The notes under the pieces: model-generated
Seen by the model: only the letters and a program-made list of their open reading frames with translations
What the model was told of the DNA's origin: nothing
The model's database searches: none
Position numbers and translations under genes: made by a program
IMG/VR virus record: IMGVR_UViG_3300033993_000697
Coordinates: 1-24,971 of that record
Origin: a virus
DNA: 24,971 nt
Direction: 5' to 3' (one strand)
Shown here: positions 9,050-15,660 of the stretch, piece after piece
Layout: the number at the start of each line of letters is the position of its first letter
How positions within the stretch are numbered: position 1 is the first letter of the stretch

Positions 9050-10872
9050 TGGCAAGGTCTTTAAACATAGTTATCGGCGCAGACATTGAAAAGCTGCAGA
9101 AAGGTTTTAACGATGCCGTCAGTGTAGTACAATCTAGCGGCAAGAAGATGAGCGAGGCGGCCGCAGAAACCGCTAAAAGCATACAGGATAGGCTTGCTTC
9201 TATTGCTACCAAAAACCCGACAGCGGGAACTGTTCGGCAGTTGACAAACCTAGCCATGGAGGCCAGGGCTTTGGGTCCTGAGTTTGCCGGGGTTGCTAAT
9301 CAAATTATACAGCAAGCGGGTAGAATTAAGGATAGCATTGGCGATGCACGGGCTGAGGTTGGATATTTTGCAAGTGACACTAGAAGACTCGATGCGGTCT
9401 TGGGTGGAGTGCAAGCAGTTGCTGGGGCGTTTAGTGCGGTAGAGGGCGCTGCTGCTTTGTTGGGTGTAGAAAACAAAGAGCTACAGCAGACAATGGTAAA
9501 ACTGCAAGGCGCTATTGCGTTGGTTAATGGAGTTACTGCAATCCAAAAAGCACTTGAACAAGAATCTATGTTCATGAAGGGGCTTAGCACTGCAGCAACA
9601 AAAGTGCAGACATTTGTTTTAGGGCAAGCAACAGTTGCAGCCCGTGCTTATGCCGCCGCTTTGGTTGCCACTGGAGCAGGTGCTATTATTGCAGGCCTTG
9701 CTTTAATTTATAGCGCATTGCAAGACAATGCAGACGCAGCAGAAAAAGCAGAAGAGGCACAAAAAAAATATGCCGATGAATTAGCAAAAAGCAATTCTCG
9801 AGCTGTTAAGTTTGTAGAAAGCCGTTTAAAACAACGCGAAGAAATCGCAAAGAAAGAGGCGCAACTTGCAGGCAAAAGCCAAGCGGATATTTTAAAAATT
9901 GAACAAGCTTATTTAAATAAAAGAATTGCGGCCTACAAGTCTATGCAAGAAGACGTAGGCGTTGAGTCGGAGCTATATGCTGAATTAGCAGAAAAACTAC
10001 AACTTGCACAAGATGAATTAACTTTAAAAGGTTTAGATATTCAAATAGAGGCTGCTCAACAAATAAGAGCAGAAAGAAAAAAAGGTGCAGATCAAACCAA
10101 AAAAGAAAATGAAGAAATAGCCAAGAGCGCCGAAGAAACTGCAAAGGCAGAAGCTAGTTTTGTAGAATGGTTAGAAAAGAAAAGATTTGAGACAGGCGAG
10201 AAGGCAAAAAAGAAAGCCATTGAAGATGCTAAATTATTAACAGCAGCAAATCTACAAGCCGGCACAGCAAACACGCCCGTATATTTAGACGTAAAAATAA
10301 ATCCAGTAAGTTATAGCGAAGCGGCAAAGGACATACAAAAAGCAACGCAAGCTTTAAACTCTGCTTTTGCTACATTGCAAGCAGATGCAGCCGCGTCTTT
10401 TGGTCAATTCCTTGGCGATCTAGCAACAGGCGAAAAAGAAGCTGGCAAGAACTTCGGTAAAAACATGCTCGGCGCTATTGCTGCTTTCATGGATTCTTTG
10501 GGTAAGGCTTTAGTTGCTACAGCTTTGGCTTCCCAAGCTTTCCAAAAATTAGTTTTAACAAACCCAGCGGCGGCGGCGGCGGCTGGTATTGCTTTGATTG
10601 CAGGCGCAACCATTGTGCGCAATTCGTTAAAGCAAGGCCCAGAGGTTAAAGCCTTTGCCGAGGGTGGTATTGTTAGCGGTCCGACGTTGGGCCTTGTTGG
10701 TGAATACCCGGGCGCAAGTTCTAACCCAGAGGTAATTGCACCACTTGACAAATTGAAGGGAATGCTAAACATGAATAACAACAACAGCGGGTTTATTGCA
10801 AGTACTACAATACAAGGCCGAGACTTAGCAATAGTTTTGGAAAGATATAATAAAGACGCACGCCGTGGCTAG
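9049..10872 (+). CDS. Tape measure protein
   Basis: 607 residues. The N-terminal domain has helices (ADIEKLQKGFNDAV). A hydrophobic segment lies near 195-224, a long charged coiled coil at about 225-395, and a second hydrophobic Ala-rich segment near 503-525. The C-terminal EGGIVSGPTLGLVGE is a recurring tape-measure ending. It sets tail length and crosses into the host at injection. At about 1.5 angstrom per residue it implies a tail near 90 nm. It overlaps the next gene by 8 nt. Confidence 0.92.
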   Translation: MARSLNIVIGADIEKLQKGFNDAVSVVQSSGKKMSEAAAETAKSIQDRLASIATKNPTAGTVRQLTNLAMEARALGPEFAGVANQIIQQAGRIKDSIGDARAEVGYFASDTRRLDAVLGGVQAVAGAFSAVEGAAALLGVENKELQQTMVKLQGAIALVNGVTAIQKALEQESMFMKGLSTAATKVQTFVLGQATVAARAYAAALVATGAGAIIAGLALIYSALQDNADAAEKAEEAQKKYADELAKSNSRAVKFVESRLKQREEIAKKEAQLAGKSQADILKIEQAYLNKRIAAYKSMQEDVGVESELYAELAEKLQLAQDELTLKGLDIQIEAAQQIRAERKKGADQTKKENEEIAKSAEETAKAEASFVEWLEKKRFETGEKAKKKAIEDAKLLTAANLQAGTANTPVYLDVKINPVSYSEAAKDIQKATQALNSAFATLQADAAASFGQFLGDLATGEKEAGKNFGKNMLGAIAAFMDSLGKALVATALASQAFQKLVLTNPAAAAAAGIALIAGATIVRNSLKQGPEVKAFAEGGIVSGPTLGLVGEYPGASSNPEVIAPLDKLKGMLNMNNNNSGFIASTTIQGRDLAIVLERYNKDARRG

Positions 10873-13381
10873 AAAATACTTTGGTTCTTTTTATTCCGTG
10901 ACAGGCAAACTGCATCGCGTTGAGATTTGGGACGGGCCAACAGGTACGACTCCAGAGATACAGGCAAGTCTTTACGCCGCCCGAGTGCAAGCCGCAGGGG
11001 GATATCAGGAGGGCGCAGGGTGTCTGCTTGAGAAATTGCAAGGTCTTAACGCCTCTATTGAGTTGACGCTTGGAGGCAATGGCTACGAAATAGAACGCGA
11101 AGGCCAAGGCGACACATTCTATCAAAATGCCATCCGACCTTCACGCTCCACATCTTTTTGGGTCATGCCATCCAATACTGTACTGGGCGAGTTTAAAGCC
11201 ATAGCCACAACCTCAGAACAATTTTGGGCTGTGCTTATTTACCAAGATAATTCTTTGGTGCACGTGGGCCGAGTTCTTGCAGATCAAATGACATTCCAAC
11301 GCGAAGCCATAGAAGCCAAGCCTGTTATTTCTTTGGGTGCTGTAGATGGTTTAGAATTGCTAAGCGGTTACAAGGTAGAATCTTCGTGGTTTACCGATGG
11401 CAAAATAACTATAGCACAGTTATTTCGTCGGTGCTTAGATGAGTTGGCGCTCAAAGATTATTGGGTTGTAGCGGGAACTGAAACAGATTATTTTAGAGAC
11501 GCTGTTGCGCCGTTTTCTTTGGATGCTACACGCAAAGGCATTGACCTTTTGCAGGTTGATCTAAATACATTTGTCGACGATTACGACCAATTTAAAGATA
11601 TTAAAGCCACCGACATTTCTGCTTTCCAATATGCGGAAAGTAATATGATGGATTGCAAGGCTGCACTAAAGCAAGTTTGTGAAATATTGCAGGCTAGATT
11701 TATGCTAGAGATTGGAAAGTATTGGCTTGTTTCTGCGACTGAATACCTAGATGCAACTGTTGCTTATCGCCAGTTTAATTACACGCTGCAATATATTGGA
11801 ACCGGCACCTACACGCACGCTGTGCAACTTGGTAACGACACACGCCCGCAATGGATAGCCAAACCATCACTAAGCTACCAGGCAGCTGCTAAGTACGTGC
11901 AGATTGACACAGAGCGAATGCTAGGTGCTACTGCATACAGAACATATGCAAACCAATCCGATACTTTTTTTGCCAAAACATTTACAGGGGTTCCAACTGG
12001 AACAACGCCAGACGAAGCACCTTTAAGAATCCGCTTTGCTGTTAAATTTGCACGGCATACATTTACCACATCGCCAACGGGCCCAGAGGATAAATCGGAT
12101 GTAGCAATTACAATTTATTTAAGGGATGGAGGCACTGGCTACCGGGTGTTAGATTTAAATACTTTGCTATGGGTTAGCGCTGCGTCTGCGCCTACTAGCA
12201 CATTTATTGAAACGATTGCTAACGACTTTCAAAATAGCAACTGGACCAGCTTTGTTTTTGACAAACAAGTAAGCAGCCCGCCTGCAGGCTTTACAATTTT
12301 AGAGGTTAAAATAAACTGGGTTAAAGCCGTTAAACAGAAATATAATATATTTGGCGGCACGGGTGCATACAATGAATTTTTTAAACCATTTTGGGGATCT
12401 ATTCAATTAGCCTTTGCGGACGCATCGCCCTACAAAAACCCCGATTTTACTTTTAACATAACTGAAACCTACACGCCCGACAACGCGAATGCCGTTAATT
12501 CTACGCCGATAATTTTAGAGCCAAAGTATTACAGCAGCTCTAGCAAATATGCCATCGGAAACATAGAGGCTTACAACTCAAGTAACCAGTGGGTAATTGC
12601 TGACGATTGGCGTGGTGGTTGGGATTCTGTGACACATGGCACGCCTACCGAAATGCTAGGCCAAGGCATTGCGGGATTGTACAAGGACTTTGTGCCATCA
12701 ATACAGGGCACGTGGGCAGATGCAGGAACTTTGACGGCCATCAAATCACTCTACTTTGATAATTACAAATGGTTAATAAACGGCGCTGTTTATACTGCAC
12801 GGTCCGAGCAATGGGCTGGCGAGTGGTTGGGATTGGTTCCAATATACACTGGGCTAACCTCATCAGGCGAAGGGCTTAAAGTTGGCACTGGTTTAAAGGA
12901 TCGTGTTAATTACCAAGACGAGCAGATAGGAAGGCTAAACGATTCGGTACAGCGCACGCCTGCATTAGTTCTTAATTACCTGGTAAACGATGCCGATGGT
13001 GCGCCCGCAACTACACCAACGCTTAACACACGTTACGAGGTAATGGTGCATTTTGACAATGCAGCACAGCAGATGTCTTGGCACCTCCAAGAGCATAACG
13101 CCTCTGTGGTATACACCAACGGAACGCACACAATTACTAACGGCTACGAGTTAATTATTTGTAATACTGCTGACGGTAATGTAACTGTGAACTTGCCAAA
13201 CGCCACAGAGAGCAAAGGCAAAAAATACTACTTTATTAAAAAAGCTAACCCGCATGTAGTGACTATAAGCGGCGGCGCGTATAATATAAACGGCTCAAGT
13301 ACAACTACTATAAATTCACAATACGGCAGCAAGACAATTATAAGCGACGGCTCCCAGTGGTATATTATTAGCAGCATTTAA
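10865..13381 (+). CDS. Tail hub / distal tail fusion protein with fibre-like C-terminus
   Basis: 838 residues, starting at GTG 10865 inside the tape measure gene. The N-terminal part (KYFGSFYSVTGKLHRVEIWD, then IELTLGGNGYEIE and SLGAVDGLELL) resembles the baseplate-hub proteins of Bacteroidota siphophages that combine Dit/Tal-like roles. Residues 36-62 are an extra motif also encoded alone at 13709. The C-terminal roughly 90 residues (VTVNLPNATESKGKKYYFIKK ... SDGSQWYII) match a recurrent beta-rich fibre tip module. No peptidase or glycosidase catalytic motif was found. The role in host contact is inferred from position. Confidence 0.75.
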   Translation: MARKYFGSFYSVTGKLHRVEIWDGPTGTTPEIQASLYAARVQAAGGYQEGAGCLLEKLQGLNASIELTLGGNGYEIEREGQGDTFYQNAIRPSRSTSFWVMPSNTVLGEFKAIATTSEQFWAVLIYQDNSLVHVGRVLADQMTFQREAIEAKPVISLGAVDGLELLSGYKVESSWFTDGKITIAQLFRRCLDELALKDYWVVAGTETDYFRDAVAPFSLDATRKGIDLLQVDLNTFVDDYDQFKDIKATDISAFQYAESNMMDCKAALKQVCEILQARFMLEIGKYWLVSATEYLDATVAYRQFNYTLQYIGTGTYTHAVQLGNDTRPQWIAKPSLSYQAAAKYVQIDTERMLGATAYRTYANQSDTFFAKTFTGVPTGTTPDEAPLRIRFAVKFARHTFTTSPTGPEDKSDVAITIYLRDGGTGYRVLDLNTLLWVSAASAPTSTFIETIANDFQNSNWTSFVFDKQVSSPPAGFTILEVKINWVKAVKQKYNIFGGTGAYNEFFKPFWGSIQLAFADASPYKNPDFTFNITETYTPDNANAVNSTPIILEPKYYSSSSKYAIGNIEAYNSSNQWVIADDWRGGWDSVTHGTPTEMLGQGIAGLYKDFVPSIQGTWADAGTLTAIKSLYFDNYKWLINGAVYTARSEQWAGEWLGLVPIYTGLTSSGEGLKVGTGLKDRVNYQDEQIGRLNDSVQRTPALVLNYLVNDADGAPATTPTLNTRYEVMVHFDNAAQQMSWHLQEHNASVVYTNGTHTITNGYELIICNTADGNVTVNLPNATESKGKKYYFIKKANPHVVTISGGAYNINGSSTTTINSQYGSKTIISDGSQWYIISSI

Positions 13382-13419
13382 TTTGTTAACACCTTGCTTT
13401 TAATGTGTTTGTAAATTGC
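13381..13419 (+). promoter_or_regulatory. Two-box promoter-like element before the tail-tip genes
   Basis: ATTTGTTAACAC at 13381-13392 and TTGTAAATTGC at 13409-13419 are 16 nt apart, matching the element at 2566-2604 in both boxes and spacing. A TTTG at 13382-13385 followed after 18 nt by TGTGTTTG (13404-13411) is an alternative reading as -33/-7. The next ATG is 7 nt downstream of the second box. It lies almost entirely in the 45-nt gap after the hub gene. Confidence 0.6.
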
Positions 13420-13426
13420 GGGTACT

Positions 13427-13705
13427 ATGGCACAAGCAAGCGCAGACATTATTGCAGGCTCGCAGGGTTTTAAATACCACGCGGCTGCGACAGTTACCTC
13501 AGTTAGTTATGACGCAGTTGTACCTACCGAGGACACTGTATTTACTTCTTTTACCGTAACCCAAGAGAATGGCACGGCCACCAATGTACTAAGTGCAAGG
13601 GGTATGTCGGGAGTAACTTTTCAGCAGGGGGCATACTTGCCAGCAGGTAAGGGCAACAAAATTACTGGCTTCATTATTAGCAGCGGCTCTGTAATTGGTT
13701 ATTAA
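13427..13705 (+). CDS. Small beta-rich virion protein, unknown function
   Basis: The 92-residue protein is rich in Gly, Ser, Thr, Val and Ala, with alternating strand-like patterns and no helix, signal peptide or membrane segment. The segment VVPTEDTVFTSFTV and the ending ITGFIISSGSVIGY recall small beta-structured tail-tip or decoration proteins seen next to fibres in Bacteroidota phages. It is the first gene after the 13381 promoter-like element, suggesting strong or separate expression. No precise role can be given. Confidence 0.7.
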   Translation: MAQASADIIAGSQGFKYHAAATVTSVSYDAVVPTEDTVFTSFTVTQENGTATNVLSARGMSGVTFQQGAYLPAGKGNKITGFIISSGSVIGY

Positions 13706-13708
13706 AAA

Positions 13709-13864
13709 ATGCTAGTAACTCAAAACCTCGGAATTGGCACGCGAGGGACAGCTTACAAAGGTCAGGGCTGGGCTCTGGTTAAGTTGTATAAAGCGCGTGT
13801 AACTGCAGACGGTGGCTATTACGAAGGCATCGGCTGCTTACTTCGAAAACTTAACAACTTATAA
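13709..13864 (+). CDS. 51-aa protein carrying the tail-hub ARV-GGY-EG motif
   Basis: ATG at 13709 and TAA at 13862-13864 give 51 residues, packed between neighbours with 2-3 nt gaps. Residues 26-51 (KLYKARVTADGGYYEG followed by GCLLRKL) match residues 36-61 of the hub protein at 18 of 26 positions. The DNA is diverged, so this is not a recent duplication. The N-terminal 25 residues (QNLGIGTRGTAYKGQGW) differ. It is probably a tail-tip-associated component or adaptor; the function of the motif is unknown to me. Confidence 0.75.
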   Translation: MLVTQNLGIGTRGTAYKGQGWALVKLYKARVTADGGYYEGIGCLLRKLNNL

Positions 13865-13866
13865 AA

Positions 13867-15660
13867 ATGAGCGACTTATTAAATAGTGCGTCCTTAGTAA
13901 TGATACCCAGTGGGTATAAAGAGGACACAGTGTACAGCGTTGTCCCTTCTGACGGAAGCGGCGACCTATCTTTTACCCGAGCATCCAACGGAACCCGTGT
14001 AAATAGTGCGGGATTGGTTGAGGTATGTCCGTGGAATTTGATAACCTATTCGGAGCAAATAGACAATCCTGCTTGGGCAAAAGAGGCGGGTAATTCAATT
14101 ATTGCCGATACTACAACCGCACCCTATGGAACATTAACCGCAGACACAATTAGCGTGGCTTCAAGTTTCAATATGAATACCTATGAAATTGTGTCAACAA
14201 ATGAAGGTATTCATACATATTCAGTTTATTTAAAAAAGAATGTTACAAATTTAATTTCACTTTATATATACCAAACTTTTGGTGCAAGTGGATTTAAAGC
14301 ATTAGGAGAAATAAATTTTGACAATGGAACATTTACGGTAAGTGTAGGAACGGGAACAATTGAAAGCGTGGGCAATGGTTGGTTTCGTTTAACCCTTACA
14401 GCAACTTTATTAAGCGGAGCAAATTCTTGCGGATTTTATACATCATCCACAACGGGAACGCGTACCGTATATGCGTGGGGCGCACAACTAAACATCGGCT
14501 CAACCGCCAAACCCTATTTCCCCACTACCGACCGCCTAAATGTTCCACGCCTAACTTATCAAAATGGCGGGGGCGGGTGTCCGTCGTTACTACTTGAAAA
14601 GCAAAGTACGAATTTGTTTAGTTATAGTGAACAGTTTGATAATGCTTATTGGTCAGTAGTAGAAGTTAGTGTTGGGGCAAATGTTACAACAAGCCCCGAC
14701 GGAACGCAGAATGCGGATAGTATTATTGACAATGCTAACTCAGGCAGACACATTATTTATCGCGAATTGAACGGCAATTTGGCAACTACGAGAACTTTGT
14801 CGCTTTATGCTAAACAAAATTCATTGCGTTATTTGTTTATGAGTGTTACAAATGCGGGTGATTCTCATTGCTATTCTGCAATTTTTGATTTACAAACGGG
14901 AACGGTTAGCGCAACCAAAACAAATGGTGATGGTACATTAAGCGCGTCAATTCAAAGTGTCGGTAATGGCTATTATCGTTGTATTATTTCGGGAACAATG
15001 ACAAGCGGAACGGCGAATTTTTACCCTTTGATTGGCACAAGTGACCGCGCGGGATTCACGGGTAGTTTATTTTCAAATAACGCACCAATTTACGCGGGTA
15101 GCGGTCAATCAATTTACATTTGGGGCGCACAAGTCGAAGAATCATCCTACCCCACATCCTACATACCAACCACATCAGCAAGTGCCACAAGGGTGGCGGA
15201 TGCTTGTAGCAAGACGGGGATAAGTTCGTTGATTGGGCAGACGGAGGGGGTTGCTTTTATTGACTTTGATTTTAACGGCAATTATTCAAGTGGTGGAATT
15301 ATCCCGATTTCATTAGATGGAGGTGCTGGCAATGAATTGTATATGTGGATTCAAACAAATGGAACAACACTTTTTGAAGTATACAATTCATCTACGAGTC
15401 AAGTTGCAATCACAGGAAGTATTGGAGCAGTTGGTCGCAAAAAAATTGCATTTGCATATAAACAAAATGATTTTGCAGTTTACTTAAATGGCACACAAGT
15501 GGGAACTGACACAAGCGGAACTGTTCCAACAATGTCAAGATTGTTTGTAGGTAAATTTTATGCAAATGACACATATAATATAAACGCGGGTATTAACCAA
15601 GCCATCCTATTCAAAACCCGCCTAACCAACGCCGAACTTGCATCACTAACCACCATCTAA
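13867..15660 (+). CDS. Receptor-binding/tail fibre candidate with tandem binding modules
   Basis: 597 residues. After an N-terminal SFTRASNGTRVNSAGLVE segment come two related beta-sandwich-like modules, about 57-222 and 249-436. Both begin N-L-x-x-YSEQxDNxxW and share SVGNGxxR and WGAQ before a YIPTT-like end. A LamG/concanavalin-like C-terminal domain (about 455-597, with YKQNDFAVYLNGTQVG) follows. Such domains bind glycans. Base composition in parts is more AT-rich than in neighbouring genes, as often seen in exchanged receptor-binding genes. Host surface recognition is inferred. Confidence 0.75.
   Translation: MSDLLNSASLVMIPSGYKEDTVYSVVPSDGSGDLSFTRASNGTRVNSAGLVEVCPWNLITYSEQIDNPAWAKEAGNSIIADTTTAPYGTLTADTISVASSFNMNTYEIVSTNEGIHTYSVYLKKNVTNLISLYIYQTFGASGFKALGEINFDNGTFTVSVGTGTIESVGNGWFRLTLTATLLSGANSCGFYTSSTTGTRTVYAWGAQLNIGSTAKPYFPTTDRLNVPRLTYQNGGGGCPSLLLEKQSTNLFSYSEQFDNAYWSVVEVSVGANVTTSPDGTQNADSIIDNANSGRHIIYRELNGNLATTRTLSLYAKQNSLRYLFMSVTNAGDSHCYSAIFDLQTGTVSATKTNGDGTLSASIQSVGNGYYRCIISGTMTSGTANFYPLIGTSDRAGFTGSLFSNNAPIYAGSGQSIYIWGAQVEESSYPTSYIPTTSASATRVADACSKTGISSLIGQTEGVAFIDFDFNGNYSSGGIIPISLDGGAGNELYMWIQTNGTTLFEVYNSSTSQVAITGSIGAVGRKKIAFAYKQNDFAVYLNGTQVGTDTSGTVPTMSRLFVGKFYANDTYNINAGINQAILFKTRLTNAELASLTTI

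Follow-up and report, generated by a model that had tools for sequence, protein, structure and literature searches.

The window analysed here is a stretch of 24,971 nucleotides (positions 1 to 24,971 of IMG/VR virus record IMGVR_UViG_3300033993_000697), and its tail-tip cluster encodes a hub, a conserved 92-aa ORF, a 51-aa protein and a tail fibre in that order (Table 1). Upstream of the hub lies a 607-aa tape-measure-like ORF, whose tape-measure identity a profile search did not confirm, and the downstream fibre matches NF048003 (E 1.7e-69) and the tail protein family phrog_5939 (E 2e-65). Judged by its predicted fold, the 838-aa ORF is a genuine hub of the Mu gp44 / MuSo2 43-kDa tail protein type: Foldseek with the hub model retrieves 3cdd and 1wru (E 2.3e-5 to 7.6e-4, probability 0.98-1.00, TM about 0.33 over domains). 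The model also matches a structural protein of Cellulophaga phage phi12:1. The hub C-terminus (residues 715-838, window 13007-13378) carries a fibre-type domain unrelated to the hub fold, with matches to phrog_37034 (E 7e-4) and phrog_20556 (baseplate).

Table 1. Genes and module copies at the tail-tip locus, in positions of the window.
Feature	Position	Strand	Evidence
Tail-tip hub, 838 aa, Mu gp44/gp27-like N-terminal half	10865..13381	+	ORF, Foldseek of AF2 model
Hub copy of the module, residues 36-61	10970..11047	+	Profile E 1.4e-10 (copy is itself a row of the profile), AF2
Hub segment, residues 24-65; a 10-residue linker instead in near-identical hub L075	10934..11059	+	
92-aa ORF, conserved, lying between the genes of hub and anchor protein	13427..13705	+	
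Stand-alone 51-aa anchor protein, Gly-rich N-terminus and C-terminal module	13709..13864	+	142 IMG/VR relatives, dN/dS
Free copy of the module, residues 26-51 of the 51-aa protein	13784..13861	+	Profile E 4e-14 (copy is itself a row of the profile), low-confidence AF2
Tail fibre, 597 aa, GTA_spike_fiber and Laminin_G_3-like; conserved over residues 1-50 and divergent beyond	13867..15660	+	

Residues 36-61 of the hub (LYAARVQAAGGYQEGAGCLLEKLQGL) and residues 26-51 of the small protein (LYKARVTADGGYYEGIGCLLRKLNNL) are identical at 18 of 26 positions, a match that a first-pass annotation had reported, and the 51-aa protein used as a query within the window's own record recovers the hub segment at E 9.8e-8. 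The coding DNA of the two copies is identical at only 39 of 78 nucleotides (50%), indicating that their likeness is one of protein, has been kept by selection and does not stem from a recent duplication. Within the module dS is saturated and dN is low: dN/dS is about 0.04-0.12, and about 0.04-0.06 in the free 51-aa protein. Close pairs of the free copy give 0.058, those of the hub copy 0.12. Relatives of the small protein are encoded on 142 IMG/VR stretches, and the 51-aa gene is real.

The shared segment belongs to a wider sequence family of about 26 residues with the motif YxxRVxADGGxxExxxC followed by LxxL. A DNA pattern for YxxRVxADGGxxE returned at least 120 stretches from viral contigs, with the module seen in many proteins, and we built a profile from 63 instances. 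This profile gave 374 matches at 10 bits or more among 34,769 ORFs and zero among reversed or shuffled control ORFs at the same threshold; after removal of duplicate loci, 294 modules at 8 bits or more remained in 283 ORFs on 207 phage contigs. Both window segments are found by the profile of diverse copies (E 4e-14 for the free copy, 1.4e-10 for the hub copy), being themselves rows of it. Of 86 distinct instances, 79 have cysteine at module position 19; as the viral seed pattern did not require this residue, its recurrence points independently to conservation. With the cysteine added, the seed pattern matched only five times in 257 Gb of bacterial and archaeal genomes; three of these matches lie on phage-like contigs in MAGs and the other two are probably chance, which led us to reject a cellular origin. 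The module is near-exclusive to phages.

No named family in Pfam, NCBIfam or PHROGs describes the module. Plasmids gave no match, a PDB sequence search gave no credible match, tblastn of hub residues 1-200 against isolate phages gave none at E<=1, and literature searches with motif strings and topics found nothing relevant. The weak matches to phrog_22281, phrog_28256 and phrog_31097 (E 0.009-0.16) are restricted to the module; these families are unnamed, the matches non-significant, and none defines the module as a unit. An EF-hand or dockerin-like loop, suggested by the DGG spacing, was rejected on a spacing misfit and the lack of a profile match. We conclude that the module is a real but unnamed family. 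Weaker N-terminal copies occur in Serratia and Acinetobacter phages: Serratia phage BZS1 p28 (L281, 1908-2813) and an Acinetobacter phage protein (L282, 1914-2825) have NAYKARVIADGG close to their N-termini, a stretch that shares the core of the module and lacks its Cys half, and one of these two proteobacterial-phage proteins adjoins a gene annotated as neuraminidase. Judged from relatives, namely the two modules of the flavobacterial Nonlabens phage P12024L, one in P12024L_05 and one in P12024L_09, the Cellulophaga phage match and the Flavobacteriaceae MAG contigs, the host of the window phage would be a member of the Bacteroidota.

AlphaFold2 modelling of hub residues 2-330 from 25 sequences (pLDDT 82.6; model numbering one below that of the full protein) places a helix at 29-42, a loop and a second helix at 52-60 between strands 15-21 and 68-77, with pLDDT of about 84-88 across the module block. 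The 51-aa protein alone yielded a poor model (pLDDT 59) with helices at 21-33 and 41-49. The module is accordingly modelled as a helix-loop-helix hairpin. The N-terminal half of the window hub shares the fold of the Mu gp44 / T4 gp27-type central hub; the insert is missing from several close relatives of the window hub itself.

Proteins carrying the module fall into 41 masked clusters, many of them short genes. They comprise hubs (in several different loops), PHROG 35281-type proteins of 375-441 aa, LamG proteins, free genes of 46-100 aa, a PF05521 head-completion protein (L190, E 3e-12) and the C-terminus of a tail terminator (L187, phrog_176, E 6.5e-9). The L190 contig has three modules, two of them consecutive in one hub loop region and the third in the head-completion protein, and free anchor genes with two tandem modules occur in L164, L181, L188, L267 and L246. 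The first-pass annotation had suggested that the motif might serve as a shared docking or cleavage element, and the second half of that suggestion finds no support here. The presence of the module at protein termini and junctions is the one point found in favour of a processing or cleavage site; the module also lies in the middle of folded domains as a modelled hairpin, is absent from near-identical hubs and comes with no protease-type match in Pfam, NCBIfam or PHROGs, and we regard this reading as highly improbable.

The same annotation described the hub copy as an inserted mobile module that interrupts the link between VEIWD and IELTLGG, and comparison of alleles bears this out. The L075 hub, 94% identical to that of the window in DNA over 2.9 kb, has a 10-residue linker in place of the module segment and reads VEIWD-APSGSGAGG-TELKLAGNG. 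Empty alleles to the filled window hub are found in L075, L158 and L258, further filled and empty pairs are L178 with L242 and L277 with L167, and the orthologues L175 and L192 carry the module in different loops. Because filled and empty alleles stand side by side, in several unrelated proteins, the mobility of the module is real; because we saw no high-identity copies of module DNA across protein families, it is old and operates at the level of protein. Recent DNA transposition within the window was rejected on this ground and on the 39/78 nucleotide identity. The module could in principle be a selfish or neutral in-frame insert that spreads wherever loops tolerate it, as would be allowed by its in-frame placement in loops across many families and in more than one loop of a single family. 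However, such an insert would not be expected to show protein-level conservation together with saturated synonymous sites, to be kept as free-standing genes beside the fibre or to lack recent cross-family DNA copies, and we consider this very unlikely.

Free copies of the module lie directly upstream of a tail-fibre gene in 118 of 122 testable cases (four of the 118 scored by eye, as the next gene starts with SLVYIPSGYK and was missed by the pattern), and other phages have it fused to this fibre N-terminus. Among small proteins at least 95% identical, fibre residues 1-50 stay 93% identical while the remainder falls to 36-47%, indicating that the small protein is associated with the anchor end of the fibre and not with its variable end. 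The module shares two features of a fibre N-terminal anchor, being fused or adjacent to the fibre N-terminus and conserved while the distal fibre varies. The strong divergence past residue 50 of fibres behind near-identical anchors, in the window and its relatives, is consistent with swapping of the receptor-binding part. Stop-to-start spacing between the 51-aa gene and the fibre varies (-1, +3 to +7 and others), and the small protein is therefore probably translationally coupled to, or co-translated with, the fibre; a programmed frameshift joining the two was rejected, as no fixed frame is kept.

The position at the fibre also bears on the possibility that the hairpin is a surface adhesion module, similar to promiscuous Ig-like domains, that loosely binds host or environmental glycans. 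Such a module would be small and promiscuous, would sit in the loops and at the ends of many virion proteins, would come and go between close relatives and would occur with LamG proteins, all of which applies here. It would hardly be expected at the conserved anchor end of the fibre rather than at its variable end, nor under strong purifying selection, nor to switch together with fibre architecture as described below. We judge this explanation unlikely.

Scoring of hub and fibre side on the same contigs revealed that the two states are linked. A module-bearing hub occurs with a free anchor on 65 contigs and a module-less hub with a fused fibre on 22 (17 with this module and 5 with the type II hairpin described below); the combination of module-bearing hub and fused fibre was found on none, and L045 is the sole exception with a free anchor and a module-less hub. 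Seventeen contigs ending too soon and six module-less hubs with no recognised fibre hairpin were left out of this scoring, and the fibre side of L075 is lost at its contig end. With hubs collapsed at 90% identity, Fisher's test gives p 6e-6. The link holds whichever way the loci were retrieved: those found through the free gene have a module-bearing hub in 54 of 55 readable cases, all 16 found through the fused fibre have a module-less hub, and those found through a module-less hub include no free anchor.

On an IQ-TREE phylogeny of the hub body, hub state changes eight times, at least six of them forced, and fibre state changes seven times. Six independent supported pairs are available on this tree, five of which co-vary, none of which oppose and one of which is neutral; the sign test (p 0.0625) just misses 0.05, and the number of switches is still small. 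On this tree, hub module state and free or fused fibre state switch in concert a minimum of five times. Passive co-transfer of neighbours is an unlikely cause, as it would have to move the two outer traits without the hub body that separates them on the genome. Sequence co-variation between hub and anchor copies within a genome is barely detectable (0.609 versus 0.602 shuffled, p 0.035), and a homotypic pair with co-varying sequences was rejected on this result.

Among module-less hubs, fibres of L357, L363, L365, L368 and L369 begin with a different hairpin in place of the module, which we term type II: DxDAxAFFxRVTxAGGxLSxTE...LKxxGIW, with a cyanophage form AYIxAVExADGQxLE. It corresponds to the PHROG 17104 fibre N-terminus, which is likewise N-terminal in fibre-like proteins and shares the Y/F..RV..xGG core with the module; it differs in having no C19 position and in running into a longer helix, and we did not see it here as an insert or a free gene. 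Profile-profile comparison of the module with PHROG 17104 gives E 3e-6 at a probability of 88%, and P0001 and the type I fused fibre N-terminus have no match to the phrog_17104 profile. Type II hairpins, including those of cyanophages, appear to be distantly related to the module and to occupy the place that it takes in the fibre. In L355, another contig with a module-less hub, the fibre begins with a further hairpin-like segment, SYQAVLNYATSLGYTLPSSAQQVKQNKLIVDLKAGGVW, that the patterns used had missed.

One account of these data that requires no specific contact between hub and fibre is that the hairpin serves as a generic folding or oligomerisation element of multimeric virion proteins. The many unrelated multimeric virion proteins that carry it, head-closure proteins and hubs among them, its dispensability within near-identical proteins and the lack of sequence co-variation between hub and anchor copies would all be in keeping with such a role. 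This account nonetheless leaves unexplained both the strict position beside the fibre and why hub state predicts a free or a fused hairpin on the fibre side, and we hold it to be rather improbable but not negligible.

Docking, the first half of the earlier suggestion, fares better, with indirect support from the position of the free copy next to the fibre gene and from the co-switching of the hub copy with the free or fused state of the fibre-side copy. It is about an even call, in our view, that phage virions use the motif, a portable helical hairpin, as a docking clip to hold the fibre at the tail tip. The modelled helix-loop-helix and the low dN/dS also speak for it. This role fits best because the free anchor goes with the hub hairpin and the fused fibre with a plain hub; physical contact, stoichiometry and fibre attachment are what we infer from that pattern. 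The basic place of the clip would be the virion-proximal, N-terminal end of the tail fibre, to which it is fused in some phages. In the lineage of the window it would have become a separate product, the 51-aa protein, whose coding sequence directly precedes the fibre gene, the two being probably co-translated. In such split phages a second copy would be displayed in a surface loop of the hub, and the hairpins of hub and anchor would most likely pair, or share a common partner, and thereby secure the fibre to the tip of the tail. A fused fibre would carry its own clip, and the hub would need none. Several points count against a docking clip: a tightly specific pair is expected to co-vary in sequence, which hub and anchor copies hardly do; hub-fibre contact alone leaves the modules of head-closure, tail-terminator and PHROG 35281 proteins unexplained; L045 breaks the pattern, and L075 has no readable fibre side; the sign test narrowly misses significance; and the model of the free protein is poor. 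A broader version, possible but with the balance against it, is that the module is a phage-restricted portable address tag: any virion protein displaying it (hub, neck, terminator or fibre) would be a docking point, and phages would rewire fibre attachment by moving the clip between fibre chain, free 51-aa protein and hub loop.

A short mobile tag marking the anchor end would bear on how fibres of uncultured aquatic phages are joined to the tail and exchanged from phage to phage: it would make attachment points readable from sequence and would give a name to many ORFs of 46-70 aa that match no named family, and natural pairs with and without the module, such as the window and L075, lend themselves to direct tests. 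New here is the finding that hubs with the module accompany free anchors and hubs without it accompany fused fibres; such joint evolution of hub insertion and gene fission is both unusual and testable.

Promiscuous Ig-like domains are small accessory modules inserted in or appended to many unrelated phage virion proteins and variably present among close relatives. The module described here resembles them in being carried by several unrelated virion proteins and in being present or absent among close homologues. In contrast to these domains, it is a 26-aa helical hairpin rather than a beta-sandwich and has no Ig profile match, and it is found at the anchor end of the fibre and as free genes, co-switching with fibre architecture.
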